From the NCBI GenBank assembly GCA_019239415.1, contig JAFAZW010000051.1:1-63934 (forward strand): DNA of 63,934 bases, read 5' to 3'. The stretch's first letter is position 1, and each line of letters starts with the position of its first letter. The DNA is from Alphaproteobacteria bacterium. Lineage in GTDB: Bacteria > Pseudomonadota > Alphaproteobacteria > Sphingomonadales > Sphingomonadaceae. Positions 24,755 through 42,321 of this stretch are shown in pieces. Under the pieces are notes generated by a model. It was not told the origin of the DNA. It was given only the letters and a program-made list of their open reading frames with translations, and ran no database searches. The translations under genes and the position numbers were made by a program.

Positions 24755-27142
24755 TCAGCTGGTGACGGTCAGCTTCGTGCTCTTGAGGTCGACCGAGTTG
24801 GGACCGGCGGAGATGGTGAAGGTGCCGGGCTCGACGACGCGCTTCATCTGCGCGTTCCACAGCGCGAAGTCGTCCGGGGTCAGCTCGAACGTGACGGTGC
24901 GCCGTTCCCCGGGCTGGAGGCGCACGCGCTGGAAGCGCTTCAGCTCGAGCACCGGCCGGGTGACCGACGCCTCGTCGTCGCGCACGTACAACTGGACCAC
25001 CTCGTCGCCCTCGCGGCGGCCGGTATTGGCGACGTCGACGCTGACCCGCACCGGTTCGTTGGTGCGGATCGACGGTCGCGCCAGCTGCGGGGCCGAGACG
25101 TCGAAGCTGGTGTAGCTGAGGCCGTAGCCGAACGGATAGAGCGGCGCCGTGGTGTCGAACAGATAGCCGCGCCGGGCGGTCGGCTTGCGGTTGTAGAAGA
25201 TCGGCAGCTGGCCGACGCTCCGGGCGATCGACACGGGGAGCTTGCCGCCCGGGGCGGCGCGGCCGAACAGGACGTCGGCCACGGCATGGCCCGTCTCCTG
25301 GCCCAGATACCAGCCCTCGATCAGCGCCGGCGCTTTCTCCGCGAGGTAAGTGACGGACAGCGGCCGGCCGTTGAGCAGGATCACCACCGTCGGCTTGCCG
25401 AGCGCGAAGACGACGCGCGCCAGATCATTCTGCTGCCCGAGCAGGTCGAGCGAGGAACGGTCGCCGAGATGCGCGTCGGCCCAGGCCTCGCGGCTCGTCT
25501 CCTCATTGTCGCCGAGCACCATCACCACGACGTCCGCCTTCCTGGCCGTCTCCACCGCTTCGGCGATGAGCCGGCGGTTCACCTCCGGATCGACGAGCTT
25601 CACCTCGTCCTTCGACCAGATGCGGTCGGTGGTGATCCGCACGCCTTCGGCATAATCGACGGCGAAGCGGCCCCGCCCCTCGTCCTGCAGGCCCTCGAGG
25701 ACGCTGACGACGTGCCGCGGCTCGTCGGAATAGCCGCCGATCGGCGTGTCCTTCGCATGGGTGCCGAGCACCGCCAGCCGCTTGATCCGGCCCCCGTCGA
25801 GCGGCAGCAGGCCGCCCTCGTTCTTCAAGAGCACCATCGCCTCGCGCCCCGCCTCGCGGGCGAGGGCGATCGCGTCGGGCGTCGCCTCCTTCGCCAGCGC
25901 CGCGCCGGCGTCGACATAGGGATGCTCGAACAGGCCGGCCTCGAACTTCATCCTGAGGATGCGGCGGACGGCCTCGTCGACCTCGCGCTCCGGCACCTTG
26001 CCCGCGCGGACCAGCTGCGGAAGGAGCGCATAGGCTTCGCCGTCGGGCGTCTCGGCGTCGACGCCGGAGTCGATCGCGCGGACGGCGGCACCGGCAACGT
26101 CGCCGAACATGTGGTGGCGCGTCACCAGCTCGCGGATCGCGAAATAGTCGCTGACGACCGCGCCCCTGAAGCCCCATTCGCCGCGCAGCACGTCGGTCAG
26201 CAGCCACTTGTTGGCGTGACTCGGGATGCCGTCGATCTCGTTATACGACGCCATCACCGAGCGGATGGGCAGCTGCTTCACCGCTTTCTCGAACGGCGGG
26301 AAGAAATCGGTCCGCAGCGCGCGCTCGCCGAGACTGGCCGGGCCGACATTGGTGCCGTTCTCCGGCTGGCCGTGGCCGGTGAGGTGCTTCAGGGTGACGT
26401 AGACCTTGTCGGACGCGAGCGGCAGGGTGGTCCCCTGGAAGCCGCGGATCGCGGCGAGGCCCATCTCGCTGACGAGATATGGGTCTTCGCCGAAGGTTTC
26501 CTCGATCCGCCCCCAGCGCGGGTCGCGGGCGACGTCGACGACGGGAGCCAAAGCGAGGTTCGCCCCGCGCGCCCGCATCTCGCGCGCCGCGACCGCAAAG
26601 ATGCGGGTGAGCAGCGGCGGGTCCCAGGTGCTGGCGAGGCCGATCGCCTGGGGGAAGCTGGTCGCGCCGCGGGCGACGTAGCCGTGCAGCGACTCTTCGT
26701 GGAGGATGAGCGGGATGCCGAGCCGCGTCCTGTCGACCGCCCAATGCTGCGCGGCGTTGATATAGTCGGCGGTCTCGCGGGCGTCGCGGCCAAGCGATCC
26801 GGCCGCCGCGCCCGCCGCGCCGTTCGCGCCGGCGGTGACGCCGCGCCGGTCCGACGGTCGCGCGATCTGGCCGAGTCCGTTCGGAAAGGCCTGGCTCGCC
26901 TTCTCCGGCGAGAAGTCGCCGGCGGGCGTCTGGATCCGGTCCTTATGCTCCCAGACCGAGAGCATCTGCGCGACCTTCTCCTCGAGGGTCATGCGCTTCA
27001 GCAGGTCCTCGACGCGGCGTTCGACCGGCTGCGAGGGATCCTTGTAGAGTGGCCGCACCGGCGCCGCGCCGATCAGCACGGCCAGCGCCGCCGCCGCAAC
27101 CAGGCCCGCGAGGCCCCTGCGCCCCATGTTCCCCGCCATCAT
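24755..27142 (-). CDS. GH3 beta-xylosidase/beta-glucosidase, exported
   Basis: 795 residues with a signal peptide (GLAGLVAAAALAVLIGAAP). GH3 N-terminal TIM barrel with KHLTGHGQPENGTN, the catalytic Asp nucleophile in VVSDYFAI and a BglX-like FEAGLFEHPYVD; then the alpha/beta sandwich (VVILLNGRPLSV, EGWYLGQETG) and a fibronectin-III-like C-terminus (YPFGYGLSYTSF). Releases terminal xylose or glucose from oligosaccharides in the periplasm. Two adjacent ATGs (27142, 27139) are possible. A XylR-type operator lies 22-37 bp upstream in the gap shared with xylR. Xylosidase is favoured by context; specificity is not proven. Confidence 0.9.
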   Translation of the reverse strand: MMAGNMGRRGLAGLVAAAALAVLIGAAPVRPLYKDPSQPVERRVEDLLKRMTLEEKVAQMLSVWEHKDRIQTPAGDFSPEKASQAFPNGLGQIARPSDRRGVTAGANGAAGAAAGSLGRDARETADYINAAQHWAVDRTRLGIPLILHEESLHGYVARGATSFPQAIGLASTWDPPLLTRIFAVAAREMRARGANLALAPVVDVARDPRWGRIEETFGEDPYLVSEMGLAAIRGFQGTTLPLASDKVYVTLKHLTGHGQPENGTNVGPASLGERALRTDFFPPFEKAVKQLPIRSVMASYNEIDGIPSHANKWLLTDVLRGEWGFRGAVVSDYFAIRELVTRHHMFGDVAGAAVRAIDSGVDAETPDGEAYALLPQLVRAGKVPEREVDEAVRRILRMKFEAGLFEHPYVDAGAALAKEATPDAIALAREAGREAMVLLKNEGGLLPLDGGRIKRLAVLGTHAKDTPIGGYSDEPRHVVSVLEGLQDEGRGRFAVDYAEGVRITTDRIWSKDEVKLVDPEVNRRLIAEAVETARKADVVVMVLGDNEETSREAWADAHLGDRSSLDLLGQQNDLARVVFALGKPTVVILLNGRPLSVTYLAEKAPALIEGWYLGQETGHAVADVLFGRAAPGGKLPVSIARSVGQLPIFYNRKPTARRGYLFDTTAPLYPFGYGLSYTSFDVSAPQLARPSIRTNEPVRVSVDVANTGRREGDEVVQLYVRDDEASVTRPVLELKRFQRVRLQPGERRTVTFELTPDDFALWNAQMKRVVEPGTFTISAGPNSVDLKSTKLTVTS

Positions 27143-27163
27143 CCTCGCCTCACGCGCCTGCTT

Positions 27164-27179
27164 TTGGTAGCGTTACCAT
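27164..27179. promoter_or_regulatory. XylR operator 1: TGGTAGCGTTACCA
   Basis: Palindrome with one mismatched pair, between the divergent GH3 gene (start 27142) and xylR (start 27256). It has the CG centre typical of LacI-family sites and matches three more sites at 28348, 38369 and 40015. It would let XylR repress the glycosidase and itself. Confidence 0.8.
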
Positions 27180-27255: not shown

Positions 27256-28341
27256 ATGGGACGGGCAAAGACGACGAGGCCGCCGAGCCGCCGGCGGCGC
27301 GGCACGATCACGATCGAGGACGTCGCGCGCGCCGCCGGCGTCTCGGCGATGACCGTCTCGCGGGTGGTGAACGGCGGCCGCAACGTGCGCGAATCGACGC
27401 GCGCCGCCGTGCTCGAGGCGGTGGAAAAGCTCAATTACGCGCCCAATACCGCCGCGCGCTCGCTCGCCGCGGGCGAGGCCACCCATATCGGCCTGCTCTA
27501 CGCGAACCCCTCCGCGGCCTATCTCAGCCAGTTCCTCATCGGCGCGCTAGAAGCCGCGCGCCGCGCCGGCTCGCACCTCGTCATCGAATCGTGCGAATCG
27601 GAAAATGCCGACGAGCAGGCCGAGGTCACCCGCCGCTTCGCGACCAGCGACGTCGAAGGCGTCATCCTCCCCCCGCCGCTGTCCGAATCGCAGCCGATCA
27701 TGGCCGAATTGCGCGCGATCGGCATTCCGGTCGTCACCGTCGCCATGGGCGTACCCGGCGAGGACGACCTCAACGTCACGATCGACGACCGCGCCGCCGC
27801 CGCCGAGATGACTCGGCACCTGATCGGGCTCGGCCACCGCGCCATCGGCTTCATCAAGGGGCACCCGAACCACATCGCCAGCCACGACCGCGAGCGCGGC
27901 TTTCTCGACGCCCTCGGCGAGGCCGGCATTCCCCTTGAGGACGCGCCGATCGAGCAGGGCTATTTCACCTACCGCTCCGGCCTCGCCGCGACCGAGCGCC
28001 TGCTCTCCCGGGCCAACCCGCCGACGGCGATCTTCGCCTCGAACGACGACATGGCCGCCGCCGCGGTCAGCGTCGCCCACCGCCGCCATTTGTCCGTCCC
28101 GGGCGATCTCAGCGTCGCCGGCTTTGACGACACCTCGCTCGCCACCACCATCTGGCCCGAGCTCACCACGGTCAAGCAGCCCATCTCCGCCATGGCCGAG
28201 GCCGCGCTGGAGCTGCTGCTCGACGACCTGCGGGGCCGTCGCGCCGGCCGCGCCCGCCACAAGACCGAGAGGGTGCTCGAGCACGATCTCATCGTCCGGG
28301 AATCGACCGGCGCCCCGACGGGGCGGTTGCGCGGCGGCTGA
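27256..28341 (+). CDS. xylR: LacI family repressor of xylose genes (XylR)
   Basis: 361 residues. N-terminal LacI HTH (TIEDVARAAGVSAMTVSRVVN) and hinge helix (NYAPNTAARSLA), followed by the periplasmic-binding-protein-like effector domain (HIGLLYANP, FASNDDMAAA, VAGFDDTSLA, TTVKQP). The first in-frame ATG giving a normal LacI start is 27256. It sits at the head of the xylose locus and four similar palindromes flank the locus genes, so by comparison with Caulobacter it is the xylose-responsive repressor. The inducer is inferred. Followed after 45 bp by the sugar transporter. Confidence 0.9.
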   Translation: MGRAKTTRPPSRRRRGTITIEDVARAAGVSAMTVSRVVNGGRNVRESTRAAVLEAVEKLNYAPNTAARSLAAGEATHIGLLYANPSAAYLSQFLIGALEAARRAGSHLVIESCESENADEQAEVTRRFATSDVEGVILPPPLSESQPIMAELRAIGIPVVTVAMGVPGEDDLNVTIDDRAAAAEMTRHLIGLGHRAIGFIKGHPNHIASHDRERGFLDALGEAGIPLEDAPIEQGYFTYRSGLAATERLLSRANPPTAIFASNDDMAAAAVSVAHRRHLSVPGDLSVAGFDDTSLATTIWPELTTVKQPISAMAEAALELLLDDLRGRRAGRARHKTERVLEHDLIVRESTGAPTGRLRGG

Positions 28342-28347
28342 GGGCCG

Positions 28348-28361
28348 TGTTACCGCTAACA
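28348..28361. promoter_or_regulatory. XylR operator 2: TGTTACCGCTAACA
   Basis: Near-palindrome (TGTTA/TAACA arms with a CG-containing centre) in the 45-bp gap between xylR and the transporter gene, 26 bp upstream of the transporter ATG. It is the most divergent of the four sites. Predicted to control a promoter for the transporter and xylD. Confidence 0.7.
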
Positions 28362-28386: not shown

Positions 28387-29802
28387 ATGACCGAACCGAG
28401 CGCGGCCCGCGCCAACATGGGCTTCATCGCCGCGATCGTCGCAGTGGCGACCATCGGCGGCTTCCTGTTCGGCTATGACAGCGGCGCGGTGAACGGGACG
28501 CAGGAGGGCCTGACCCAGGCCTTCCACTTGAGCGAGGGCGGCCTCGGCTTCACCGTCGGATCGCTGCTGATCGGCTGTTTCATCGGCGCCTTCCTCGCCG
28601 GCCGCCTGGCGGATCTGTTCGGTCGGCGCAACGTGATGATGCTCGCCGCCTTGCTCTTCCTCATCGGCGCCGTCGTGCAGGGGATCAGCCACGACCATGC
28701 GGTCTTCCTCGTCGCCCGGCTCTGCGGGGGCATGGCGGTGGGCGCCGCCAGCGTCCTCTCGCCGGCCTATATTTCCGAGGTGGCGCCGGCGAACATCCGC
28801 GGCCGGATGACGACGATCCAGCAGATCATGATCATCACCGGCCTCACCGGCGCGTTCGTCGTCAATTATTTCCTGCAGCAGGCGGCGGGCAAGTCGACCG
28901 CGCTGTTCTGGGGCGGCTACGAGGCCTGGCGCTGGATGTACCTGATGCAGGCGATCCCGGCGGCGATCTTCCTCCTCGCCCTGTTCATGATCCCGGAAAG
29001 CCCGCGCTACCTCGTCGTCAAGGGCCGCGACGCCGAGGCGCAGGGGGTGCTCGCCCGGCTGTTCGGCAATGCCGACGTCGCCTCGACCAAGGTCCAGGAG
29101 ATCCGCGCCACCCTCGCCGAAGACCATCGCCCGCGCCTCAGCGACGTGATGGCGAAGGGCGGCCACGGCTTCATCTTCCGGCCGATCGTCTGGGCCGGCA
29201 TCCTCCTCGCCGTGTTCCAGCAGCTCGTCGGCATCAACGTCATCTTCTATTATGGCGAGACACTCTGGAAGCTGGCGGGCGTTTCCGAATCCGCCGCCCT
29301 CGAGCGCAACATCGTCTCGGGCCTCGTCTCGATCGCCGCCTGCTTCGTGACGATCGCCGTCATCGACCGGATCGGCCGCAAGCCGCTGCTCCTGATCGGC
29401 TCGGCGGGCATGGCGGCGACCCTGTTCGCGATGGTCTACGCCTTCGCCAACGGCACGCTCGACGCGACCGGCAACCTCCAGCTGTCGGCGAGCATCGGCA
29501 TGATCGCCCTCGTCGCGGCCAATCTCTACGTCATCTTCTTCAACGTGAGCTGGGGCCCGGTCATGTGGGTGATGCTCGGCGAAATGTTCCCGAACCAGAT
29601 CCGCGGGTCGGCGCTCGCCGTGGCCGGCTTCGCACAATGGTTCGCGAACTATCTCATCGCGCAGAGCTTCCCGATCATGTCCAAGTGGAGCCTGGCGGGC
29701 AGCTACGTGTTCTACGCCGTCTCGGCCCTGATCAGCTTCTTCCTGGTCCAGAAGTTCATCCACGAGACCAAGGGCAAGGAGCTCGAGGAGATGCGGGGGT
29801 AG
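28387..29802 (+). CDS. xylE: MFS sugar porter, xylose/H+ symporter-like
   Basis: 471 residues, 12 TM. Sugar-porter signatures: GFLFGYDSGAVNG in TM1, LFGRRN after TM2, PESPRYLV before the central loop, QQLVGINVIFYYG in TM7, IDRIGRKPLL, and the C-terminal HETKGKELEEM. Imports a pentose or hexose with protons across the inner membrane. XylR operator 2 lies just upstream and xylD follows after a folding repeat. Xylose is the expected substrate from context. Confidence 0.9.
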   Translation: MTEPSAARANMGFIAAIVAVATIGGFLFGYDSGAVNGTQEGLTQAFHLSEGGLGFTVGSLLIGCFIGAFLAGRLADLFGRRNVMMLAALLFLIGAVVQGISHDHAVFLVARLCGGMAVGAASVLSPAYISEVAPANIRGRMTTIQQIMIITGLTGAFVVNYFLQQAAGKSTALFWGGYEAWRWMYLMQAIPAAIFLLALFMIPESPRYLVVKGRDAEAQGVLARLFGNADVASTKVQEIRATLAEDHRPRLSDVMAKGGHGFIFRPIVWAGILLAVFQQLVGINVIFYYGETLWKLAGVSESAALERNIVSGLVSIAACFVTIAVIDRIGRKPLLLIGSAGMAATLFAMVYAFANGTLDATGNLQLSASIGMIALVAANLYVIFFNVSWGPVMWVMLGEMFPNQIRGSALAVAGFAQWFANYLIAQSFPIMSKWSLAGSYVFYAVSALISFFLVQKFIHETKGKELEEMRG

Positions 29803-29809
29803 CCCGCGT

Positions 29810-29970
29810 GCCTCCCCATCGGAGATGGGGAGGGGGACCAGCGTAGCTGGTGGAGGGGTGACCGGCGCGACGATCTGAGTTTCTCGCGAGAACCTCCGGA
29901 TCCGGCGCCAGTTACCCCTCCACCGCCTCCGGCGGTCCCCCTCCCCCTCCGCTTCGCGGACGGGGAGGCA
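29810..29970. repeat. ~160-bp inverted repeat, copy B, between xylE and xylD
   Basis: Left part CCTCCCCATCGGAGATGGGG-AGGGGGACC with TAGCTGGTGGAGGGGT, right part ACCCCTCCACCG..GGTCCCCCTCCCCCTCC..GGACGGGGAGGCA: long imperfect complementary arms with internal small hairpins. Same architecture as copy A (695-855). Its end supplies purine-rich sequence just upstream of xylD. As RNA it would form a large structure between two cistrons. Confidence 0.75.
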
Positions 29971-29984
29971 GAATGGAGCCACAT

Positions 29985-31766
29985 ATGACCGATCGCACCC
30001 CTGCCCGCCCCTTCCGCTCGCGCGCGTGGTTCGCCGCGCCGGGGCGGAGCGACATGGCGGCGCTATACCTCGAGCGATTCATGAACTACGGGGTCACGCC
30101 CGACGAGCTTCGCTCGGGGAAGCCGATCGTCGGCATCGCCCAATCCGGTTCCGACATCGCACCGTGCAACCGGGTCCATCTCGAGCTCGTCCACCGCATC
30201 CGCGCCGGCATCCGCGACGCGGGCGGCATACCGATGGAATTCCCGCTCCACCCGATCTTCGAGAATTGCCGCCGCCCGACGGCGGCGCTCGACCGCAACC
30301 TCGCCTATCTCGGCCTCGTCGAGATATTGAACGGCTACCCGATCGACGCCGTCGTCCTCACCACCGGTTGCGACAAGACCACCCCCGCCTCGATCATGGC
30401 CGCCTCGACGGTCGACATCCCCGCCATCACGCTCAACGGCGGCCCGATGCTCGACGGCTGGCACGACGGCGAGCTGGTCGGCTCGGGCACCGTCATCTGG
30501 CGTTCGCGCCGCTTGCTCGGCGCCGGCGAGATCGACGAGGAGGAGTTCCTCCGCCGGGCCACCGATTCCGCCCCATCGCTCGGCCATTGCAACACGATGG
30601 GCACGGCCAACACGATGAACGCCGTCTCCGAAGCGCTCGGCCTCTCGCTCCCCGGCCAGGCGGCGATCCCCGCGCCCTATCGCGAGCGCGGCCAGATCGC
30701 CTACGAGACCGGCCGCCGCATCGTCGACCTCGCCTATGAGGACCTGCGCCCGTCGAAGATCCTGACCCGCGGCTCCTTCCTCAACGCGATCCGCCTGGTC
30801 ACCGCGATCGGCGGCTCGTCCAATGCGCAGCCGCATATCGTCGCCATGGCGCGCCACGCCGGCGTCGAGATCCGGAGCGAGGACTGGATGGAGCACGGCT
30901 ACGACCTGCCGCTGCTCGTCGACATGCAGCCGGCGGGCCGCTTCCTCTCCGAACGCTTCCATCGCGCCGGCGGCGTCCCCGCCGTGCTCTGGGAGCTGCT
31001 CCAGGCCGGCAAGCTCGACGGCGGCGAGATGACGGTGACCGGCCGCACCATGGCGGAGAACCTCGAAGGCCGCCAGGCGACGGACCGCGAGGTCATCCGC
31101 CCCTTCGCCGAGCCGCTGAAGCGGCGCGCCGGCTTCCTCGTCCTCAAGGGCAACCTGTTCGACTTTGCCATCATGAAGACCAGCGTGATCTCGGAGGATT
31201 TCCGCCGCCGCTATCTCAGCCAACGGGGGCATGAGGGCGTGTTCGAGGCGCGCGCGATCGTCTTCGACGGATCGGACGACTATCACCACCGCATCAACGA
31301 CCCCGCGCTCGGGATCGACGAGAATTGCATCCTCGTCATCCGCGGCGCCGGCCCTCTCGGCTGGCCCGGCTCCGCGGAGGTGGTGAACATGCAGCCGCCC
31401 GACCACCTCCTCCAGCGCGGCATTCAGAGCCTGCCGACACTCGGCGACGGCCGCCAGTCCGGCACTTCCGACAGCCCGTCGATTCTCAACGCCTCCCCCG
31501 AGAGCGCGGCCGGCGGCGGCCTCGCCTGGCTGAAGACCGGCGACACGATCCGCATCGACCTCAACCAGGGAAGCTGCGACGCTCTCGTGAGCGAAGACGA
31601 GATCCGCCGCCGCATCGCCGCCGGGCCGCCGCCGGTTCCCGAGAGCAACACGCCCTGGGAGCAGCTCTTCCGCGAGGAGACCGGGCAGCTCGCCGAAGGC
31701 GGCGTCCTCGAATTCGCGCTCCGCTACCGGGGCACTTCCGACACGACGCCGCGACACAATCATTGA
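29985..31766 (+). CDS. xylD: D-xylonate dehydratase (IlvD/Edd family)
   Basis: 593 residues. Dehydrates D-xylonate to 2-keto-3-deoxy-D-xylonate, third step of the Weimberg pathway. IlvD/Edd iron-sulfur dehydratase with cluster cysteines in DIAPCNRVH, TTGCDKTTP and GHCNTMGT, then NAQPHIVAMARHAGV, RSGTSDSP-like GRQSGTSDSPSILNASPE, and a PRHNH C-terminus as recalled for Caulobacter XylD. ATG 29985 with GGAG six nt upstream is preferred; ATG 29973 also has a purine-rich site. L-arabonate or gluconate dehydratase are family alternatives, but the neighbouring xylXABC set favours xylonate. Confidence 0.93.
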   Translation: MTDRTPARPFRSRAWFAAPGRSDMAALYLERFMNYGVTPDELRSGKPIVGIAQSGSDIAPCNRVHLELVHRIRAGIRDAGGIPMEFPLHPIFENCRRPTAALDRNLAYLGLVEILNGYPIDAVVLTTGCDKTTPASIMAASTVDIPAITLNGGPMLDGWHDGELVGSGTVIWRSRRLLGAGEIDEEEFLRRATDSAPSLGHCNTMGTANTMNAVSEALGLSLPGQAAIPAPYRERGQIAYETGRRIVDLAYEDLRPSKILTRGSFLNAIRLVTAIGGSSNAQPHIVAMARHAGVEIRSEDWMEHGYDLPLLVDMQPAGRFLSERFHRAGGVPAVLWELLQAGKLDGGEMTVTGRTMAENLEGRQATDREVIRPFAEPLKRRAGFLVLKGNLFDFAIMKTSVISEDFRRRYLSQRGHEGVFEARAIVFDGSDDYHHRINDPALGIDENCILVIRGAGPLGWPGSAEVVNMQPPDHLLQRGIQSLPTLGDGRQSGTSDSPSILNASPESAAGGGLAWLKTGDTIRIDLNQGSCDALVSEDEIRRRIAAGPPPVPESNTPWEQLFREETGQLAEGGVLEFALRYRGTSDTTPRHNH

Positions 31767-31807: not shown

Positions 31808-32431
31808 ATGCTTGGTTTCCTGGCCCTTCTCCTGACCGGCGCGGCGCCCCCGGCGGCGCGCGCCGCGCCGACCTATGACCGTCCGCCGATCTCGTACGCC
31901 GACTACCCCGAGGACGCGCTCCGGGCGAACCGACAGGGTCTCGTCCAGGTCCGGCTGGCGATCGACGCCGCCGGGAAGGTGGCTGGCTGCACCGTGGTCC
32001 AGTCCAGCGGCACGCCCAGCCTCGATGCCGCCACGTGCGATATCCTGCAAAGCCGGGCGGCCTTCACGCCCGCGCGCGACGCGGCCGGCCGACCGGTCCC
32101 GGACGTCTATCTGCAGAAGATCGCCTGGCGCATCGCGGGGCCCGTGCGCGAGCCGGCGCTCGACGCCGCGGCGCAGGCGTGGGTGAATTGCCTGCTGACC
32201 GAGGCCGGCAGCCAGGCGCGCGGCCACGATCCCGCCGAGAGCGTGGCCGACCGCGCCTTCGCGGCCTGTACCCAAGGGGAGCGGGGCATGCTCACCGCGA
32301 TCGCGGCCACCGTTCCGAAAGGGGCCACCCCAGTGAGCGAGGTTCCCCGGGAACTGCGGCAAGGGATCCGGGAAACGGTGCTGAAGCGCATCGCGCAGCT
32401 CCGCGCGGCCGAGGCTGGCAGCTCGCCATGA
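31808..32431 (+). CDS. Secreted TonB-C-module protein (one TonB module plus Cys-pair helical module)
   Basis: 207 residues with a signal peptide (MLGFLALLLTGAAPPAARA). Residues ~25-105 form a TonB C-terminal-like module (YPEDALRANRQGLVQVRLAID; PSLDAATC; FTPARDAAGRPV; WRI) with a Cys pair (AGCTVVQ and AATCDIL). Residues ~110-200 are a helical module with another Cys pair (WVNCLL and FAACTQ). It lacks the TM anchor and Pro-rich spacer of a true TonB. Its last codons overlap the next, related gene by ATGA. It lies within the xylose locus after xylD. Function unknown. Confidence 0.8.
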   Translation: MLGFLALLLTGAAPPAARAAPTYDRPPISYADYPEDALRANRQGLVQVRLAIDAAGKVAGCTVVQSSGTPSLDAATCDILQSRAAFTPARDAAGRPVPDVYLQKIAWRIAGPVREPALDAAAQAWVNCLLTEAGSQARGHDPAESVADRAFAACTQGERGMLTAIAATVPKGATPVSEVPRELRQGIRETVLKRIAQLRAAEAGSSP

Positions 32432-33626: not shown

Positions 33627-35546
33627 TCAGCGCCCGATCGGCACCTCGAACGGCCCGGCCGGCAGCGGCGCCTCGTCGAACAGGTTCACCACCGGCGAGT
33701 CGGCCCAGGCATAGCGGACGCGGGTCGCCGGGCGGCCGTCGTCGGCGACGCGCACCGTCGCGCCTTCGGCGACGGCGTCGGCATAGCGGCAGCTCTGCTG
33801 CGTCTCGGCGCACAGCTCGAAACCGAGCGGGTGCGCGCCGCTCCACGCATGGAGGCTTCCCTTGACGCCGCGGAAGCTGAGCAGGATGCCCGCCGCCGTG
33901 CGCCGCGCGGCGACGATCTCCGGCCCCGACGGCGGCACGTCGGCGCCGTAGGCGAGCGCGCGCGCCGCCTGGGCGAGCCGCCGCCCGACCTCCAGCTTCT
34001 GCCCGGGATGGATGTCGAACCGGTCGCCAATGTCCAGGGTGACGACCACCGCGGCGCGGCCGTCGTGCAGCGCCGCCTCGCGCTGGGCCTCGCGGATCTG
34101 TGCCCAGCCGCTCTCGACGGGGGCGCTGGCGGGGTTGCCGAAATTGGCGAGGCTGACGACGAGGAACGGTAGGGCCGGCGCCTCGAACTGGCGGCGCCAC
34201 CCCGCCATCATGGCCTCGAGCTTGGCGGCATAGCCGGCCGGCGAGCCGGCATCGGTCTCCCCCTGGTACCAGGCGACGCCCCTGAGGCCGTAGGCGCCGA
34301 GCGGCGCGACCATGCCGGAATAGATCGGCGACAGGCCTGCCGCCGCGTCCCACGGCGCGCGCGGAGGATCGCCGATGCCGGACGGCGCCACCGCATAGTC
34401 CCACCCCTCGCCGAGCGGCACCGATCCGCCGCCGGCGAGGCCGAGCCGGAGCTTCGCCGCCGGGCCCTGGAAGCCGCCATAGCCCCACGAGTCGATGAGG
34501 GCGACGAGGATCACGTTGTCGCCGGCGTGGAGCAGGCCCTTGGGCAGCCGGTAATCGCGATCGACGTCCCAGCCGAAGGTATTGCCGACCGGCACGCCGT
34601 TGACGATGGTCTCGTCGATCTCGTCGACGACGCCGAGAGACAGGGTCTCCGCCCGCGCCGCCTCATCGGCGGTAAGCCGCACCACCTTCCTGCCCCAGAC
34701 GATGCCGTCGAAGCTGGCGAAGGCGGGGTCGCCCCACGTCTCCCAATAGGCGATCTTCGGCATCGGCTTCCACGCGAGGGCGGACGCGTCGCGCCACGGC
34801 GCCTGGTGCGCGTGGCTCTCCCACCAGGCCTGCCAGAGCGTGCCGAACGCCCGGTTGCCGGCGAGCGGATCGCGCCGGTAGAGGTCGAGCAGCTCGGCGT
34901 CGCGGCCGCCCACGGCGCGGCCGGCGCCGACGTCCAGCCAGGAGCGGATCGCCGTGCCGCCCCAGGTCGCGTTGATCGCGCCGACCGGCACGTTCTGCGA
35001 CGCCCTGAGCTGTCGCGCCAGATAGTAGCAGGCGGCCGAGAAGCCGGGCACCGACTGCGGCGTCACGGGCGACCAGCCGACCGGGCCGCCGAAGCCGTAG
35101 GCCGGCGCCGTAGCCGTCTTGCGCGGCACCGTCAGAATGCGCAGCTGCGGATCGTTGGCGCTTTCGATCTCGCTCTGGTTGTTGAGCACGCGCGAGAGCT
35201 GCAGCTCCATGTTCGACTGGCCCGAGCAGAGCCAGACGTCGCCGACCAGCATGTCCTCGGCGACGACACGCGCCCCGTTCCCGCCGACCGCCTCGAGCCG
35301 GTACGGCCCGCCCGCCGCCATCGCCGGCAAGGTTGCCCGCCAGACGCCGTCCGCCCCCGTCACCGCCTCGGCGCGGCCGGCGCCGAGCGTCACGCTCACC
35401 CGCTCTCCGGGATCGGCCTTGCCCCAGATGCGGATCGGCCGGTCGCGCTGGAGCACGCCATGGTCGGAAAAGAGCGGGTGGAGGACCGGCGCCGCCTGCG
35501 CCGCGCCAGCGAGGAGAAAAGCGGTGAGGGCCGCCGCGGCCTTCAC
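33627..35546 (-). CDS. Sialate O-acetylesterase / acetylxylan esterase-like SGNH hydrolase, exported
   Basis: 639 residues. The GTG at 35546 overlaps the xylC stop (GTGA) and yields a clean signal peptide (KAAAALTAFLLAGAAQA); an ATG 18 nt upstream is the alternative. The SGNH-type nucleophile motif is GQSNME, with AWYQGETDAG later and a C-terminal beta domain. An embedded galactose-binding-like insert (residues ~270-370) is present. The family removes O-acetyl groups from sugars. In a xylose/xylan locus, deacetylation of xylo-oligosaccharides is the likely role. Last gene of the xylX-xylB-xylC unit, all joined by overlaps or a 1-nt gap. Confidence 0.88.
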   Translation of the reverse strand: MKAAAALTAFLLAGAAQAAPVLHPLFSDHGVLQRDRPIRIWGKADPGERVSVTLGAGRAEAVTGADGVWRATLPAMAAGGPYRLEAVGGNGARVVAEDMLVGDVWLCSGQSNMELQLSRVLNNQSEIESANDPQLRILTVPRKTATAPAYGFGGPVGWSPVTPQSVPGFSAACYYLARQLRASQNVPVGAINATWGGTAIRSWLDVGAGRAVGGRDAELLDLYRRDPLAGNRAFGTLWQAWWESHAHQAPWRDASALAWKPMPKIAYWETWGDPAFASFDGIVWGRKVVRLTADEAARAETLSLGVVDEIDETIVNGVPVGNTFGWDVDRDYRLPKGLLHAGDNVILVALIDSWGYGGFQGPAAKLRLGLAGGGSVPLGEGWDYAVAPSGIGDPPRAPWDAAAGLSPIYSGMVAPLGAYGLRGVAWYQGETDAGSPAGYAAKLEAMMAGWRRQFEAPALPFLVVSLANFGNPASAPVESGWAQIREAQREAALHDGRAAVVVTLDIGDRFDIHPGQKLEVGRRLAQAARALAYGADVPPSGPEIVAARRTAAGILLSFRGVKGSLHAWSGAHPLGFELCAETQQSCRYADAVAEGATVRVADDGRPATRVRYAWADSPVVNLFDEAPLPAGPFEVPIGR

Positions 35547-36406
35547 CGCGCCACTCGTGGGCACGGCACGCCCGGCACATCCACCCGGAACTCGAAAAGA
35601 TCGCCAATCTGCGGCTGTTTCGCGATCTGCTCGGGCTTCAGGAGTTGCCGCGCCGTCGTCGCGTAGACCGTGCGTAGATCGTCCCCGCCAAAGGCGATCT
35701 TCGTGATGTTGGAGACCGGGAAGCGCACCCGATCGACCAGCTTACCCGTCGGCGAATAGCGCCGCGCCTCCCATCCCGCGTAGAGGCTGATCCAGACGCA
35801 TCCCTCGCTGTCGATCGTCGGACCGTCCGGATGTCCCTCCTTCGGGTCGATCCTGACGAACGGCCGGCGCGGCCCGAGCGAGCCGTCGGAGTGGATGTCC
35901 GCCGCCTCGATCGTCCCCCCCAGCGTGTCGACGAAATAGAGGATGCGCCCGTCCGGCGACACGCACGGTCCATTGGTGATGGCGATCCCTTCGATGTGAG
36001 TGCGCACCACGATGCCGCGCTCGTAGCGGTAGAAGGCCCCGCTCCTGTCGCGCTCGCCATTGTCCATGGTGCCGAACCACATGCGCCCGGCCGGGTCGGC
36101 GACGGCATCGTTCAGCCGGTTGTCCGGCCGCTCCGGCTCCATCTCCGCGATGAGATCGAAGCCGCCGCTCTCGGGGTTGAAGCGATGCAAGCCGCTCTGC
36201 AGGCCGGCGATGAACGCCCCGCCTTCCTCCGGCAGGATGAAGCCCACCTGCTCCGGCGCGTCCCAGCTCCGCCGGCCGCCGCCGGCCGGATCGTAGCGGT
36301 GGATCTTCTGCGTCTTGATGTCGACGAACCAGAGCGCCCCTTCGACCCAGACCGGGCCTTCGCCCAGTTCGCAATGGAGGTCCCAGACGTTTCTTGGCTC
36401 CGCCAT
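35543..36406 (-). CDS. xylC: Xylono-lactonase (SMP-30/gluconolactonase family)
   Basis: 287 residues, six-bladed propeller. Hydrolyses D-xylonolactone to xylonate, second Weimberg step, in the cytosol. SMP-30 metal ligands fit LGEGPVW (Glu), RLNDAVADPAGRMWFGTM (Asn) and PDGPTIDSEG (Asp); ITNGPCVSPDG also matches what I recall of Caulobacter XylC. The ATG is one base after the xylB stop. Its last 4 nt overlap the esterase start. Confidence 0.92.
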   Translation of the reverse strand: MAEPRNVWDLHCELGEGPVWVEGALWFVDIKTQKIHRYDPAGGGRRSWDAPEQVGFILPEEGGAFIAGLQSGLHRFNPESGGFDLIAEMEPERPDNRLNDAVADPAGRMWFGTMDNGERDRSGAFYRYERGIVVRTHIEGIAITNGPCVSPDGRILYFVDTLGGTIEAADIHSDGSLGPRRPFVRIDPKEGHPDGPTIDSEGCVWISLYAGWEARRYSPTGKLVDRVRFPVSNITKIAFGGDDLRTVYATTARQLLKPEQIAKQPQIGDLFEFRVDVPGVPCPRVAR

Positions 36407-36407
36407 C

Positions 36408-37175
36408 TCACCGCCATCCCGCGTCGATGAACACCTCGTGCCCCGTCATCAGCCGCGCATCGTCGGACGCGAGGAAGAGGACGAGCGAGGCGACGTCCTC
36501 GGGCGCCAGCCTGCCCGGGAGGCACTGGGCGGCGACGATCTCGGCCTCGCCCTCGGGCGTATACCATTGCAGCTGGCGGGGAGTCCTGACGTTTCCGGGC
36601 ACGACGCAGTTGACGCGGATGCCGTCGGGGCCGAGCTCCCGGGCCAGCGCGCGGGTCATGCCTTCGATCGCCGCCTTCGCCGTCTGGTAGACGGCGAGCT
36701 CCGGAATGCCGAGGTGCCAGGAGATCGAGCCGAAATTGACGACCACGCCGCCCCCCTTCTCCCGCATCCCCGGCACCACCGCCTGGGTGCAGAAGAAGAG
36801 GTGCTTGAGGTTCACCGCCATGCGCTGATCCCAATAGGCCTCGTCGACCTCCTCCCAATCGTGGCGGTCGTCATTGCCGGCATTGTTGACGAGGACATCG
36901 AACGCGCCGCCGTCGTCGATCAGCCGGCGGATCGTCGCCTGGGTCGCCGCGATGTCGGTGAGGTCGACGCGCTCGTAGCAGAGCCGCTCCGCGCCGAGGC
37001 CGGTGACGAGCTGGCGCGAGGGCTCGTCGGCGATATCGAAGAAGACGACGTCGCTGCCCTGCCGCACGAACGCCTCGACGATGCCGGCGCCGATGCCCGA
37101 GCCGCCGCCGGTGATAAGGACGCGCCTGCCCTCGAGGCTTGGATAGATGGCCCGCCTGTCCTGCTTCTCGGTCAC
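36408..37175 (-). CDS. xylB: D-xylose 1-dehydrogenase (NAD+), SDR family
   Basis: 255 residues. Oxidises D-xylose to D-xylonolactone, first Weimberg step. N-terminus AIYPSLEGRRVLITGGGSGI with the SDR glycine motif, NNAGNDDRHDW, the catalytic Ser in NFGSISWHLG, VYQTAK (Tyr/Lys), GNVRTPRQ and a C-terminal GHEVFIDAGWR. NDDRH, GSISWHLG and the DAGWR end agree with Caulobacter XylB as I recall it. The GTG start overlaps the xylX stop (GTGA). Confidence 0.93.
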   Translation of the reverse strand: MTEKQDRRAIYPSLEGRRVLITGGGSGIGAGIVEAFVRQGSDVVFFDIADEPSRQLVTGLGAERLCYERVDLTDIAATQATIRRLIDDGGAFDVLVNNAGNDDRHDWEEVDEAYWDQRMAVNLKHLFFCTQAVVPGMREKGGGVVVNFGSISWHLGIPELAVYQTAKAAIEGMTRALARELGPDGIRVNCVVPGNVRTPRQLQWYTPEGEAEIVAAQCLPGRLAPEDVASLVLFLASDDARLMTGHEVFIDAGWR

Positions 37176-38317
37176 GTCCGCTCCTGTCGGGATGAGGGTC
37201 CGAGCAGGCCGCGCGCGGCGAGGTTGCGCATCAGCGCGCGCACCCCGAAGCGCCACGGCGGCGCCGCCTTGGAAGTCGTCACCCGGTTTTGCAATACGCC
37301 GATCCGCGGCGCGCCGATCCGCACCACGTCGCCTTCCTTGTGGGTGAAGCCGCGGCCCGGCTCGTCGCGGTCCTGGACCGGCGCGAACAGGGTGCCGAGG
37401 AAGAGCGTGAAGCCGTCCGGGAAATGATGCTCGCTCATCGCCTGGCGGAGCAATTCTTCCGGGTCGCGGCTGATCTGGCGCATCTCGCTGCGGCCTTCGA
37501 GCCGGAAATCGTCGGCGCCCTCGACGACCAGCTCGACCTCCGCCGCGCGCACGTCGTCCATGGTGAACCCGCGGTCGAACAGGCGGATGAACGGGCCGAT
37601 CGCGCAGGAGGCGTTATTGTCCTTAGCCTTGGAGAGGAGGAGGGCGCTGCGGCCCTCGAAGTCCCGCAGATTGACGTCGTTGCCGAGCGTCGCGCCCTTG
37701 GCCCGTCCCCGGCTGTCGGCGACCAGCACCACTTCGGGCTCGGGGTTGTTCCAGGTCGAGTCGGACCGGACGCCGATCGCGCCGCCCCAGCCGACCGTCG
37801 ACAGGATTGGCGACTTGGTGAAGATCTCGGCGTCGGGACCGATGGCGACCTCGAGATATTGCGACCACATCCCTTCGTCGATCAGCGCATGCTTCAGCCG
37901 CATTGCCTCGTCCGAGCCGGGCACGACGGCGCGGATGCCGCCGCCGATCCGCTCCTCGAGCATCGCCCTGATACCGGCCGCCTGGTCCGCATCGCCGCGC
38001 GCCCGCTCCTCGATCACGCGCTCGACCGCGGAGACGGCGAACGTCACCCCCGCCGCCTTCACCACCTGCAGGTCGACGGGCGAGAGAAGGAAGGCGCCGG
38101 GCGCGGAGGCGGCGACGCGCGCGATCAACTCCTCGGTCGAAAAGAGCCGCTCCCCGTCGGCCGAGGCGGGATCGGCGCGGTCCATGAGGTCGGAAACGGT
38201 GGGTGCCGTACGGGAGACGTCGAAGACGGCGCCATCGCGTACCACCACCGGCGTGGGGCCCGCCTCGAGCTGCAGCCGACCCGCGAGACTCGCATCGTCG
38301 AGGTCGACCGGCAGCAT
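37172..38317 (-). CDS. xylX: 2-keto-3-deoxy-D-xylonate dehydratase (FAH family)
   Basis: 381 residues. Converts 2-keto-3-deoxyxylonate to 2-oxoglutarate semialdehyde, fourth Weimberg step. Fumarylacetoacetate-hydrolase-fold C-terminus (VGWGGAIGVRSDSTWNNPEPE, then GNDVNLRDFEGRSALLLSKA) with the acidic metal ligands. The ATG at 38317 is chosen because the longer frame to 38383 would put the XylR operator inside the coding region, although the Shine-Dalgarno is weak. First gene of the xylX-xylB-xylC-esterase operon, with operator 3 lying 52-65 bp upstream. Confidence 0.9.
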   Translation of the reverse strand: MLPVDLDDASLAGRLQLEAGPTPVVVRDGAVFDVSRTAPTVSDLMDRADPASADGERLFSTEELIARVAASAPGAFLLSPVDLQVVKAAGVTFAVSAVERVIEERARGDADQAAGIRAMLEERIGGGIRAVVPGSDEAMRLKHALIDEGMWSQYLEVAIGPDAEIFTKSPILSTVGWGGAIGVRSDSTWNNPEPEVVLVADSRGRAKGATLGNDVNLRDFEGRSALLLSKAKDNNASCAIGPFIRLFDRGFTMDDVRAAEVELVVEGADDFRLEGRSEMRQISRDPEELLRQAMSEHHFPDGFTLFLGTLFAPVQDRDEPGRGFTHKEGDVVRIGAPRIGVLQNRVTTSKAAPPWRFGVRALMRNLAARGLLGPSSRQERT

Positions 38318-38368: not shown

Positions 38369-38382
38369 TGGTAGCGCTACCA
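38369..38382. promoter_or_regulatory. XylR operator 3: TGGTAGCGCTACCA
   Basis: Perfect 14-bp palindrome between the xylA stop (38405) and the xylX start (38317). Identical to the core of operator 4. It shows that the xylX operon has its own XylR-controlled promoter rather than relying on read-through from xylA. Confidence 0.85.
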
Positions 38383-38404: not shown

Positions 38405-39988
38405 TCAACCCGCTTCCACCACCATCGCCTTGCCGTCGACCAGCCGGTCGATACGGCGCGGGTTCGAGTCGCGCAGCTCCGGGGGCAGCAGATCGTCGGG
38501 CAGATCCTGGTAGGCGACGGGACGCAGGAAGCGGTCGATCGCCATCGAGCCGACCGAGGTCGAGCGGCCGTCGGACGTGGAGGGGAAGGGGCCGCCATGG
38601 ACCATCGCATGGGTGACCTCGACGCCGGTGCCGAAGCCGTTGACCAGGATGCGACCGACCTTGCGCTCCAGCACCGGGAGGAGCCGGCGCGCGTCGTCAT
38701 GGTCGGCCTCGGCGATATGGAGCGAGGCAGTGAGCTGGCCTTCGAGGCTCTCCACCACCTCGGCCAGGGCCGCGTCGTCCGGACAGCGGACGACGAGCGA
38801 GGAGGAGCCGAACACTTCCTCCTTGAGCTGCGCGTCGGCCAGGAAGGCGTCGGCGCCGGTCGAGAACAGGCCCGCCTGGCCCTGATAATTGTGGCCGGCC
38901 TTGCCGCGTGCGACGGTGTCGACCTTCGGGTGCCGCGCCAGCGCCTCGACTCCGGCGCAATAAGCCTGGTGGATGCCGGGAGTGAGCATCGTTCCGGGCG
39001 CTGTTTCCCGGAGCGCGGTCGCCGCCGCTGCGGTGAAGCGGTCCAGCCCCTCGCCCTCGATGGCGAGCAGCAGGCCGGGGCTGGTACAGAACTGCCCCGC
39101 CCCCATCATCAGCGAGTTGACGAAGGCCTGCGCGATCTGCGGCCCGCGCTCCTCCAGCGCTCCCCGGAACAGCAGCACAGGATTGATCGAACTCATCTCG
39201 GCGTAGACGGGGATCGGCTCGGGCCGCGCCTGGGCGATCTTCATGAGGGCAAGCCCGCCGCGCCGGGAGCCGGTGAAGCCGACGGCCTTGATGCGCGGAT
39301 CGGCGATCAGTGCCTGGCCGATCTCGTAGCCCGAGTCGAACACGAGCGAGAAAACACCTTCGGGCAGGCCGCACGCCTCGACCGCGTCGCGGATCGCGCG
39401 TCCGACCAGCTCCGACGTGCCGGGGTGCGCCGGATGCGCCTTGGCGACGACCGGACAGCCCGCGGCGAGAGCCGACGCGGTATCGCCGCCGGCGACGGAG
39501 AAAGCGAGTGGGAAGTTCGAGGCGCCGAACACGGCCACCGGGCCGAGCGGGATCTTGCGCGAGCGCACGTCCGGCCTCGGCAGCGGCTTGCGCTCGGGCT
39601 GGGCCGGATCGATCCGCGCCTCGACGTAGCGCCCCTCCCGCACGACCTGCGCGAACAGCCGCAGCTGCCCCGCGGTGCGGCCGCGTTCGCCCTCCACCCG
39701 CGGCCGCGGCAGGCCGCTCTCGGCGATCGTGCGCGCGACGAGCTCCTCGCCGAGGCCGACGATATTGTCCGCGATCGTGTCGAGGAATTTGGCGCGCAAC
39801 TCCGGCTCGACGGCGCGATAAGAATCGAATGCCTCCCAGGCGAGGCGGCAGGCCTCGTCCAGTTGCTCCCGAGTCGCACCCGCATAAGCGGGCTCCAGCG
39901 TCTCCCCCGTCGCCGGGTCGACGCCGCGCACCTCGCCGACCGAGCCTTTGACGGCGCGACCGCCGATGAACATCTCTCCGTTGATCAC
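38405..39988 (-). CDS. xylA: 2-oxoglutarate semialdehyde (2,5-dioxovalerate) dehydrogenase
   Basis: 527 residues. Oxidises 2-oxoglutarate semialdehyde to 2-oxoglutarate with NAD(P)+, last Weimberg step, feeding the TCA cycle. Aldehyde dehydrogenase fold: [16 protein letters not shown], the NAD loop [16 protein letters not shown] (general base Glu) and the catalytic Cys in [10 protein letters not shown]. Length and FGASNFP/QFCTSPG context fit the KGSA dehydrogenase branch. GTG start with GGGAG about 8 nt upstream. Operator 4 lies 26-41 bp upstream, shared with the divergent GH3 gene. Confidence 0.92.
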
Positions 39989-40013
39989 GTCGATTTCTCC
40001 CGGAAGGCGAGTG

Positions 40014-40029
40014 TTGGTAGCGCTACCAA
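40014..40029. promoter_or_regulatory. XylR operator 4: TTGGTAGCGCTACCAA
   Basis: Perfect 16-bp palindrome in the 98-bp gap between divergent xylA (start 39988) and the second GH3 gene (start 40087). The strongest of the four sites; it can repress both directions. Confidence 0.87.
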
Positions 40030-40086
40030 AGTGGTGCGGGGCCGTGTAGGCTCAACCCCGCTCGAAAGAAAAGGCTTCGCCGATCG

Positions 40087-42321
40087 ATGATGAAGACGCT
40101 CGCCCTCGCCGCCGCCGCCGCTTCCCTGCTCGCCCCTGCCGCCGCCTCGTCCTTCGCGCCGCCCCGCAACGCGCCGGCCGCCGCGGCGCGGCCATGGATG
40201 AACCCGACGCTTTCGCCCGATCGGCGCGTCGCCTTGCTCCTGCCGACCATGACCGAGGACGAGAAGCTGACCCTCGTCTTCGGCTATTTCTCGATCGATT
40301 TCCCGCCCAAGAGCTACACGATGCCGGCGGGCGGGCGCGAGGGCGCCGCCGGCCACGTACCCGGCATTCCGCGGCTCGGCATCCCCCCGCAATGGCAGAC
40401 CGACGCGGGCGTCGGCGTCGCCAGCCAGGGCGGCGCCAGGCACAAGCGCGAGCGCACCGCCCTGCCCTCCGGCATGGCGACCGCCGCCACCTGGAACCCC
40501 GTCACCGCTTTCGCCGGCGGGCGGATGATCGGGGCCGAAGCGCGCGCGTCGGGCTTCAACGTGATGCTCGCCGGCGGCGTCGACCTCGTGCGCGACCCCA
40601 GGAACGGCCGCAATTTCGAATATGGCGGCGAGGACCCTTTGCTGGCCGGGACGATGGTCGGCGCCCAGATTGCGGGCATCCAGTCGAATGCGATCATCTC
40701 GACCGTCAAGCATTACGCCCTCAACGACCTCGAGACGGGGCGCGACTATCATGACGCCCGCATCGCGCCGGAGGCGGCGCGCATGTCGGACCTGCTCGCC
40801 TTCCAGTTCGCGATCGAGCGGTCGGACCCGGGCTCGATCATGTGCTCGTACAACCAGGTGAACGGCACCCATGCCTGCGAGAATCGCTGGCTGCTGATCG
40901 ACGTGCTGCGCGGCGATTTCGGCGCGAAGGGATTCGTCATGTCGGACTGGGGCGCAACCCACAGCACCGAGGCCGCCGCCAGTGCCGGCCTCGACCAGGA
41001 CAGCGGTTTCCCGTTCGACAAGGAGCCCTATTTCGGCGCGCCGCTCAAGGCCGCCATCGCCGCCGGCCGCGTCCCCAAGGCGCGGCTCGATGCCATGGCC
41101 GGCCGGATCCTGCGGGCGATGTTCGCCCATGGCCTGTTCGATCGTCCCGTCGCACCCGGCCCGATCGACCTCGCCGCCCACGCCGCGGTCAGCCGCACCG
41201 ACGCCGAGGAAGGCGCGGTGCTGCTCAAGAACGAGCACAATGTCCTTCCCCTCTCGCCGCACGCGAAGCGGATCGTCGTCATCGGCGGCCATGCCGACGC
41301 CGGGGTGCTCGCCGGCGGCGGCTCGTCGCTGGTCTATCCGGTCGGCGGCAATGCCGTCCCCGGCCTCGCCCCGACCGGCTGGCCCGGGCCAGTCATGTAC
41401 TATCCGAGCGCGCCGCTCCGCGCGCTGAAGGCGCTCATGCCCGGCGCCGACATCAGCTATGTCGACGGCGGCGACCCCGCCGCGGCCGCGGCCGCCGCGC
41501 GGGGCGCCGACGTCGCTCTCGTCTTCCTGACGCAATGGGCGGGCGAGGCGTTCGACGTCCCCTATCGTCTCTCCGGCAACCAGGACGCCCTCGTCGAGGC
41601 CGTTGCCGCCGCCAACCCGAAGACGGTCGCGGTGCTCGAGACCGGCGGCCCGGTCGCCCTTCCCTGGGCGGGCCGCGTCGGCGCCATCCTCGAAGCCTGG
41701 TATCCGGGCACGGCCGGCGGCGAGGCGATCGCCAACCTCCTGACCGGCCGCGCCAACCCCTCCGGCCGCCTCCCGGTCACCTTCGCCCGCGACGAGAGCC
41801 AGCTCCCCCGCCCGGCGCTCCCGGGCGGCGGCCTTCGCGAGGGCGAGCCGTTCGCCATCGACTACAGCGAAGGCGCCGCCGTCGGCTACAAGTGGTTCGA
41901 CGCAAGGCATCTCGACCCGCTCTATTCCTTCGGCCATGGCCTCTCCTACACGACGTTCGCGCATGGCGGGCTCACCGCGACGCTGCGGGACGGCCGCATC
42001 GCCGTCAGCTTCCGCGTCCGCAACGCCGGGAGCCGGGCGGGAAGCGACGTTCCGCAAGTCTATGTCGCGGGCCCGGCCGGCGCGGGCTGGGAAGCGCCCA
42101 AGCGCCTCGCCGGCTTCAGCAAGGTCGCCCTCGCGCCCGGCGCTTCGCAAGCCCTCGCGGTGACGATCGACCCGCGCCTCCTCGCCACCTTCTCGCGCGG
42201 GCAGTGGCATATCGCAGGCGGAGAGTATCGGGTGATGCTCGGCAAGTCGGCGCGCGACATCGGCGAAACCGTCACCGTGCGGGTGCCCGCGCGCACCCTG
42301 CCCGGGAACTGGCGCCCCTAG
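40087..42321 (+). CDS. GH3 beta-glucosidase/beta-xylosidase, exported
   Basis: 744 residues with a signal peptide (MMKTLALAAAAASLLAPAAAS). GH3 barrel with the Asp nucleophile in FVMSDWGAT, STVKHYALNDLE, CSYNQVNG and NRNG-like DPRNGRNFEYGGEDP; then the alpha/beta sandwich (AVLLKNEHNVLPL, LEAWYPGTAGGEAIA, GRLPVTF) and an FnIII-like end (YSFGHGLSYTTF). It belongs to a different GH3 branch from the 24755-27142 gene, so the two probably differ in substrate. XylR operator 4 is 58-73 bp upstream. Its TAG stop overlaps the convergent gene's TAG within CTAG. Confidence 0.9.
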   Translation: MMKTLALAAAAASLLAPAAASSFAPPRNAPAAAARPWMNPTLSPDRRVALLLPTMTEDEKLTLVFGYFSIDFPPKSYTMPAGGREGAAGHVPGIPRLGIPPQWQTDAGVGVASQGGARHKRERTALPSGMATAATWNPVTAFAGGRMIGAEARASGFNVMLAGGVDLVRDPRNGRNFEYGGEDPLLAGTMVGAQIAGIQSNAIISTVKHYALNDLETGRDYHDARIAPEAARMSDLLAFQFAIERSDPGSIMCSYNQVNGTHACENRWLLIDVLRGDFGAKGFVMSDWGATHSTEAAASAGLDQDSGFPFDKEPYFGAPLKAAIAAGRVPKARLDAMAGRILRAMFAHGLFDRPVAPGPIDLAAHAAVSRTDAEEGAVLLKNEHNVLPLSPHAKRIVVIGGHADAGVLAGGGSSLVYPVGGNAVPGLAPTGWPGPVMYYPSAPLRALKALMPGADISYVDGGDPAAAAAAARGADVALVFLTQWAGEAFDVPYRLSGNQDALVEAVAAANPKTVAVLETGGPVALPWAGRVGAILEAWYPGTAGGEAIANLLTGRANPSGRLPVTFARDESQLPRPALPGGGLREGEPFAIDYSEGAAVGYKWFDARHLDPLYSFGHGLSYTTFAHGGLTATLRDGRIAVSFRVRNAGSRAGSDVPQVYVAGPAGAGWEAPKRLAGFSKVALAPGASQALAVTIDPRLLATFSRGQWHIAGGEYRVMLGKSARDIGETVTVRVPARTLPGNWRP

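Follow-up and report, generated by a model that had tools for sequence, protein, structure and literature searches.

A xylose locus with a predicted XylR regulon in a sphingomonad, and a predicted last pathway enzyme from another dehydrogenase lineage

In Caulobacter, the xylose genes are arranged in a single operon, xylXABCD. The pathway, the repressor XylR and its box are well known from Caulobacter and Xanthomonas, and for Sphingomonas there is a report of a Weimberg pathway, named as such for S. sanxanigenens NX02 (PMC10463938); the locus described here is a system of this kind. The operator of XylR in C. crescentus comprises 14 bp (PMC7198004), the Caulobacter xylose motif has been given as 20 bp (PMC1790865), and the xyl-box of X. 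citri reads TGGTAGCGCTAACA (PMC10380989). The xylose motif is common to xylose-induced TonB receptors of Caulobacter and Xanthomonas, and xylan-linked receptors of Xanthomonas carry it as well (PMC1790865). Among the titles and abstract openings covered, a body of literature outside of which most subscription papers lie, no description of the present regulon or of an exchange of the last enzyme in sphingomonads was found. What is added here are a wider predicted regulon in this group, revised gene starts and a last enzyme that is exchanged reciprocally.

Gene content of the locus

The window, i.e., the whole stretch of 63,934 nucleotides that was analysed, is contig C19 of a draft genome of 3.49 Mb in 103 contigs (97% complete). 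Its XylD is closest, at 83-87% identity, to proteins from Sphingomonas species and from MAGs of Alphaproteobacteria, and the host is therefore treated as a sphingomonad. Gene identities were assigned by family scans (Pfam/NCBIfam) and PDB sequence searches, and from left to right the order is GH3a (-), LacI (+), MFS (+), XylD (+), two TonB_C ORFs (+), CE20 esterase (-), XylC (-), XylB (-), XylX (-), aldehyde dehydrogenase (-) and GH3b (+). A preceding sequence-only reading had placed xylB, xylC, xylD, xylX and xylA, genes for an MFS symporter and a LacI repressor, two GH3 glycosidase genes and that of an acetylxylan-esterase-like protein together in about 17.5 kb, which is borne out by the family matches and by a gene order conserved in relatives. 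One related locus (L002) repeats the whole layout, and the order GH3-LacI-MFS-XylD-(XylC XylB XylX) is common among Sphingomonas loci. The four units proposed in the same reading correspond to four control regions with operators, which would serve six transcripts, namely GH3a (-), lacI (+), MFS-xylD (+), xylX-xylB-xylC-CE20 (-), xylA (-) and GH3b (+).

Like the xylXABCD operon of two Caulobacter loci (L074, L078), to which XylX is 63%, XylB 65%, XylC 46-49% and XylD 76% identical, the locus is associated with a LacI repressor, and in both Caulobacter loci TGTTAGCGCTACCA precedes xylX. In contrast to Caulobacter, its genes are split over both strands with four operators, the repressor, transporter, GH3 glycosidases and esterase are adjacent, and the predicted last enzyme comes from another ALDH lineage. 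Very probably, the locus is the xylose end of a sphingomonad xylan-utilisation regulon, following the Weimberg route, repressed by XylR and equipped with a last enzyme of the other lineage.

With respect to the pathway enzymes, the predicted SDR-type D-xylose 1-dehydrogenase XylB (36408-37175, minus strand) reaches 419.7 bits against NF053674 (XylDhXylBProt, cut-off 400) when scanned with the longer ORF, its start being revised from 37256 to 37175, a GTG overlapping the xylX stop. The predicted D-xylonolactonase XylC (SMP-30/SGL family, PF08450; 35543-36406, minus strand) has as its best PDB match 7PLB, the Caulobacter xylonolactonase (PMC9795676), and the motifs bearing the E, N and D of the 7PLB Fe site are present, as judged by motif and not by alignment. 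The predicted D-xylonate dehydratase XylD (29973-31766, plus strand), a member of the IlvD/EDD family that exceeds the cut-off of PRK13017 and has the Cys and Ser-x-Thr motifs, can be aligned from residue 6 to residue 597 with 5OYN, described as the D-xylonate dehydratase of C. crescentus (PMC5770437). Its cysteines of the pentonate-type [2Fe-2S] site are found at C65, C133 and C206, together with S496 and T498 (numbered from motif positions), the reference residues of the 5OYN enzyme being Cys60, Cys128, Cys200, Ser490 and Thr492 (PMC5770437). Finally, the predicted 2-keto-3-deoxy-D-xylonate dehydratase XylX of the FAH family (37172-38317, minus strand) matches PF01557 with 32.2 bits (cut-off 23.9), and its PDB matches are 9kkt and the 2-keto-3-deoxy-D-arabinonate dehydratase 2q18. 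The listed ORF starts at ATG 38383 and its first codons (ATGGTAGCGCTACCA) sit on operator 3 (see below); the true start is likely ATG 38317, which places this operator 51 bases upstream.

It is very improbable that the locus serves another sugar acid such as L-arabonate, D-gluconate or galactonate, with xylose being secondary. IlvD/EDD pentonate dehydratases do accept several acids, and the Caulobacter enzyme also takes D-gluconate (PMC9795676); moreover, a second, about 60% identical XylD paralogue is present in 8 of the 26 genomes of the genus, though absent from the genome studied here. However, XylD scores 1038 bits to 5OYN as compared to 446 bits to the L-arabinonate dehydratase 5J83, XylB lies above the D-xylose dehydrogenase cut-off, and the same operator precedes GH10 and GH115 genes. 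On the scores of XylD, the L-arabonate reading was rejected, and the case in which the enzymes act on L-arabonate or another sugar, named beforehand as contradicting the assignment to xylose, is disfavoured by the scores of XylD and XylB. In favour of the oxidation of xylose by the Weimberg route, the xylose isomerase model TIGR02630 had no match in this genome and matches only one of the 26 genus genomes; X. citri, in contrast, uses xylose isomerase genes (PMC10380989).

Apart from XylD, the genome yields no match to PF00920 (IlvD/EDD), a separate ilvD or edd not being seen, and the IlvC-like gene adjoins a recA-like gene, so named from its sequence. That XylD necessarily doubles as dihydroxy-acid dehydratase was considered and not adopted: PF00920 has no match at all in 8 of the 26 genus genomes and an IlvC-like match is found in all 26, so that ilvD is lost independently of xylD. 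In another genome (L155, on contig C233 of G014), an about 61% identical XylD paralogue and a 63% relative of the dehydrogenase discussed below lie at 1-1113 and 7343-9241 of one contig, hinting at a parallel sugar-acid pathway.

The MFS sugar porter (28387-29802, plus strand) is XylE-like, with 375.9 bits against TIGR00879 (cut-off 237.8) and 371 bits against the XylE model, which is below the cut-off of 608 of the latter. It is separated from xylD by 170 bases, as compared to 40-69 bases in 28, at least 120 in 11 and at most 1 in 3 of the 42 loci with that order (this one included). The spacer is filled by a dispersed inverted-repeat element (29809-29970; arms 29809-29837/29942-29970 and 29824-29886/29887-29949) with 83 matches in the genome (E up to 0.001) and another copy in the window at 694-854, which suggests an insertion into an operon. 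As a point against the favoured explanation, there is no operator directly in front of xylD and this repeat element lies between it and the MFS gene.

On the xylan side, the GH3 glycosidase GH3a (24755-27142, minus strand; PF00933, PF01915 and Fn3-like domains) is of the beta-xylosidase/beta-glucosidase type, with 5z87 and the beta-xylosidase 7zb3 as best PDB matches. The best PDB match of the GH3 glycosidase GH3b (40087-42321, plus strand; PF00933/PF01915) is 8va7, followed by beta-glucosidases; it fits these better than xylosidases, which speaks against the favoured explanation. Neither of the two passed a cut-off in the NCBIfam scan, and by eye both N-termini look like signal peptides. The predicted carbohydrate acetylesterase (33627-35564, minus strand; PF03629) has as its nearest relatives, over the full length, structures treated as CE20 (9EGA, 7KMM and 9H4U; PMC12313940), the alignment to 9ega covering 28-641 of 644, and contains both the serine in GQSNM and the DxH motif in the form of DIH.

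Several neighbouring genes are mentioned here for completeness. Two tandem ORFs (31808-33624, plus strand) with one and then two TonB C-terminal domains converge on the esterase gene. Inspected by eye, their products have the look of exported proteins and not of genuine TonB energy transducers, and they are probably unrelated to the xylose locus. A GFO/IDH/MocA oxidoreductase gene (42318-43283, minus strand) adjoins GH3b, a neighbourhood kept in L002, L006, L010 and L011; an operator of its own was looked for and none was found. A protein of 1122 aa encoded at 21380-24748 (plus strand) carries GH18, polysaccharide deacetylase and family 2 glycosyltransferase domains, and at 44936-46897 (minus strand) a PCMT methyltransferase domain and an erythromycin-esterase-family domain are joined in a single protein.

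Predicted XylR operators within and beyond the window

The candidate xylR (27256-28341, plus strand) codes for a LacI-family protein with LacI HTH and Peripla_BP domains; a search of three Caulobacteraceae genomes gave best matches at 55% identity. Its start was revised from GTG 27049 to ATG 27256: the HTH domain begins well inside the listed ORF, which overruns the start of GH3a unless begun at ATG 27256. Pattern searches yielded four operator-like sites, all of them 14-bp palindromes resembling the published XylR xyl-box. Operator 1 (TGGTAGCGTTACCA, 27165-27178) lies between the divergent GH3a and lacI genes and operator 2 (TGTTACCGCTAACA, 28348-28361) before the MFS gene, while the perfect palindrome TGGTAGCGCTACCA occurs both before xylX (operator 3, 38369-38382) and between the divergent xylA and GH3b genes (operator 4, 40015-40028).

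With up to one mismatch, the pattern TGKTASCGYTAMCA has 8 strand-matches, corresponding to these 4 places, in the window, as compared to a mean of 0.01 and a maximum of 1 in 100 dinucleotide shuffles of the window. In the entire genome, there are six places with zero mismatches and none for the reversed control pattern, but at one mismatch 20 strand-matches stand against 15 for the control. As the control is nearly as frequent at one mismatch, weight is placed only on zero-mismatch or well-placed sites. Accordingly, the one-mismatch places at C15:5637 and on contigs C83, C88, C51 and C23 are not claimed as operators, those on C88 and C51 lying inside called ORFs. The place on C15 (5637-5650; L097) lies upstream of an MFS transporter gene and has the variant TGTGAGCGCTAACA.

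In relatives, a site with up to one mismatch is present between GH3a and lacI in 39 of the 40 loci with this arrangement, before the MFS gene in all 39 loci with the LacI-MFS order, and ahead of xylX in 41 of the 70 loci, the remaining 29 showing none; the random-stretch control gave 37 of 1600, a value inflated by stretches that may overlap real sites. At the level of whole genomes, zero-mismatch sites were found in 13 of the 14 genus genomes with XylD and in none of the 12 without, the one exception (G014) being 81% complete. The control pattern has the same lean, although far weaker (8 of 14 versus 3 of 12), which is partly explained by a tendency of XylD-bearing genomes to be larger. A palindromic box resembling the xyl-box thus precedes the pathway genes and is conserved in relatives, and the LacI protein is predicted to be the repressor acting at it.

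The other two zero-mismatch sites of the genome both reside on contig C21, and at both the box TGGTAGCGCTAACA of the Xanthomonas XylR xylan system with TonB receptors (CUT loci) is exact on the minus strand. One precedes a GH10 gene, at 9 or 15 bases from in-frame ATGs of the latter, with GH115 and GH9-like genes following, and the other lies 36 bases before a gene for a TonB-dependent receptor (TIGR01782, over cut-off), from which four tryptophan-halogenase-family genes diverge. Sites before both the GH10 gene and the same TonB receptor recur in two other genomes (G015 and G018; L129, L130). Of 20 stretches around sites in relatives, chosen from the site lists and not comprising all sites, 18 have, within about 400 bases of a site, a homologue of a xyl-locus gene, of a TonB receptor, of GH10 or of GH115, some of these homologues being distant (28-39% identity). 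No recognised homologue was found near the site in the other two (L139, L147), and a further site falls within a GH9-like gene. Given the zero-mismatch sites before the GH10-GH115 run and the TonB receptor, the regulon is predicted to span the way from xylan to 2-oxoglutarate. Family models, relatives in the PDB, synteny and the footprinting of operators all support the earlier proposal of a complete Weimberg set with a XylR regulon readable from sequence, with the qualification that the predicted regulon extends beyond the window.

It is hardly probable that the flux instead follows the Dahms route, in which an aldolase yields pyruvate and glycolaldehyde. For S. sanxanigenens NX02, isomerase, Dahms and Weimberg routes have all been reported (PMC10463938); in the locus studied here, however, xylX and the candidate semialdehyde dehydrogenase gene have operators, and no aldolase is found among the scanned proteins of the locus itself.

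The predicted dehydrogenase of the last step

The predicted alpha-ketoglutaric semialdehyde dehydrogenase (KGSADH) of the Weimberg route is encoded at 38405-39988 (minus strand; PF00171, Cys and Glu motifs). The name xylA given to this gene in the sequence-only reading is apt as a functional label, but the gene is not an orthologue of the Caulobacter-type xylA: its product shares 25% identity with the XylA encoded in a Phenylobacterium xyl operon (L012), whereas the Caulobacter counterparts are 79-80% identical to the latter, and the best match to the L012 XylA anywhere in the genome is 39%. In the PDB search, it reached 485 bits to 3v4c, 454 to 1eyy and 62 to the Azospirillum KGSADH 5x5t. Since no curated KGSADH model was passed (86.8 bits at a cut-off of 770, 86.5 at a cut-off of 750), its substrate is assigned by position, operator and reciprocal distribution. 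The window enzyme may be a KGSADH of type II/III.

Among 80 XylD loci (L002-L081), 15 have the window type of dehydrogenase (82% identity in L002, 60-63% in the rest) and 11 the Caulobacter type (at least 69%, L012 being the query), and none has both; the remaining 54 contain neither type in the available flanks and are uninformative on the exchange, 31-34% matches in L064 and L076 being left uncounted. In turn, in the 14 genus genomes with XylD, this one included, the two types are reciprocal at the level of orthologues, seven against seven: the window type (at least 76%) is present in G000 (the genome studied here), G001, G006, G008, G010, G015 and G019, and the Caulobacter type (at least 71%) in the other seven. 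In two of the latter, G009 and G014, a 63% relative of the window type is additionally encoded elsewhere in the genome. In the 12 genomes without XylD, the Caulobacter type is found in G007, G012 and G017 (68-72%) and the window type in G007 (61%), while 48% matches to the Caulobacter type in G004 and G005 were left uncounted.

As to its location, of the seven genus genomes with the at least 76% identical dehydrogenase, only G000, G010 and G015 have its gene in the xyl locus beside an operator, a point of difference from Sphingomonas xylose genes such as those of S. sanxanigenens NX02; in G010 and G015 it lies between operators beside xylX, as in the locus described here. In G001 and G008 it is unlinked, and TGTGAGCGCTAACA, the one-mismatch variant also seen on C15, is found within 100 bases of its start. 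It is likewise unlinked in G006 and G019, where a search for the box before the gene found none.

These observations bear on the possibility that the enzyme serves hydroxyproline, glucarate or another aldehyde and that the pathway is completed by another dehydrogenase, which is quite unlikely. It would be in keeping with the scores below all curated KGSADH models, with the position of the gene away from the xyl genes in G001, G006, G008 and G019, and with the link of the type II and III enzymes to glucarate/galactarate and hydroxyproline in Azospirillum (PMC8231600). Against it stand the perfect operator at the gene in the present locus, the one-mismatch box close upstream in G001 and G008, and the presence of the at least 76% identical enzyme in exactly the seven genomes, out of 14 with XylD, from which the Caulobacter type is missing.

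If the enzyme does complete the Weimberg route, as favoured here, the distribution of the two types is to be read as repeated non-orthologous replacement at one step of the pathway. Mapped onto a tree of XylD with 33 rows of known type, which is a gene tree and not a species tree, at least four type changes are required, as compared to a mean of 10.5 in shuffled assignments. The XylD of the window groups with that of L006, which has the other dehydrogenase type (support 96/87), although the single row nearest to it, L138 of G010, shares its type; transfer of xylD could be an additional source of type changes. On balance, it is more probable than not that the last Weimberg step is an exchangeable slot, two non-orthologous dehydrogenases having been swapped at least four times in sphingomonads as counted on the XylD tree, and that in some lineages at least the XylR operator accompanies the dehydrogenase even when the gene is unlinked, an association seen in G001 and G008 but not in G006 or G019.

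As in the case of the KGSADH types I and II/III of Azospirillum and Burkholderia, differing dehydrogenase lineages can fill one step, and for Burkholderia relatives without araE, aldH copies have been proposed as substitutes in the arabinose pathway (PMC8231600). In contrast to these cases, the exchange described here concerns the xylose pathway, is associated with XylR operators and is reciprocal across the genus.

Proposed working and significance

The sequence itself shows which genes are present, where operator-like sites lie and that these are conserved, all of which is consistent with the following working of the locus. Xylan would be broken down by the GH10 xylanase and GH115 glucuronidase encoded on the other contig, and then by the CE20 esterase and the GH3 glycosidases, and xylose might enter through the MFS porter. 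XylB, XylC, XylD, XylX and the NAD(P)-dependent aldehyde dehydrogenase would convert xylose to 2-oxoglutarate without phosphorylation, the last step being carried out by a dehydrogenase of a lineage other than the Caulobacter-type XylA and encoded inside the locus under its own operator. The LacI-type XylR would repress the units via the 14-bp xyl-box, from which it may be released by xylose or a near metabolite.

The analysis thereby links the breakdown of xylan, uptake and a phosphate-free route to 2-oxoglutarate in one operator-defined, predicted regulon of sphingomonads, and yields a list of promoters for testing. In addition, the sphingomonads would offer a set of naturally occurring enzyme exchanges at a single pathway step, which may aid in choosing a semialdehyde dehydrogenase for xylose engineering.
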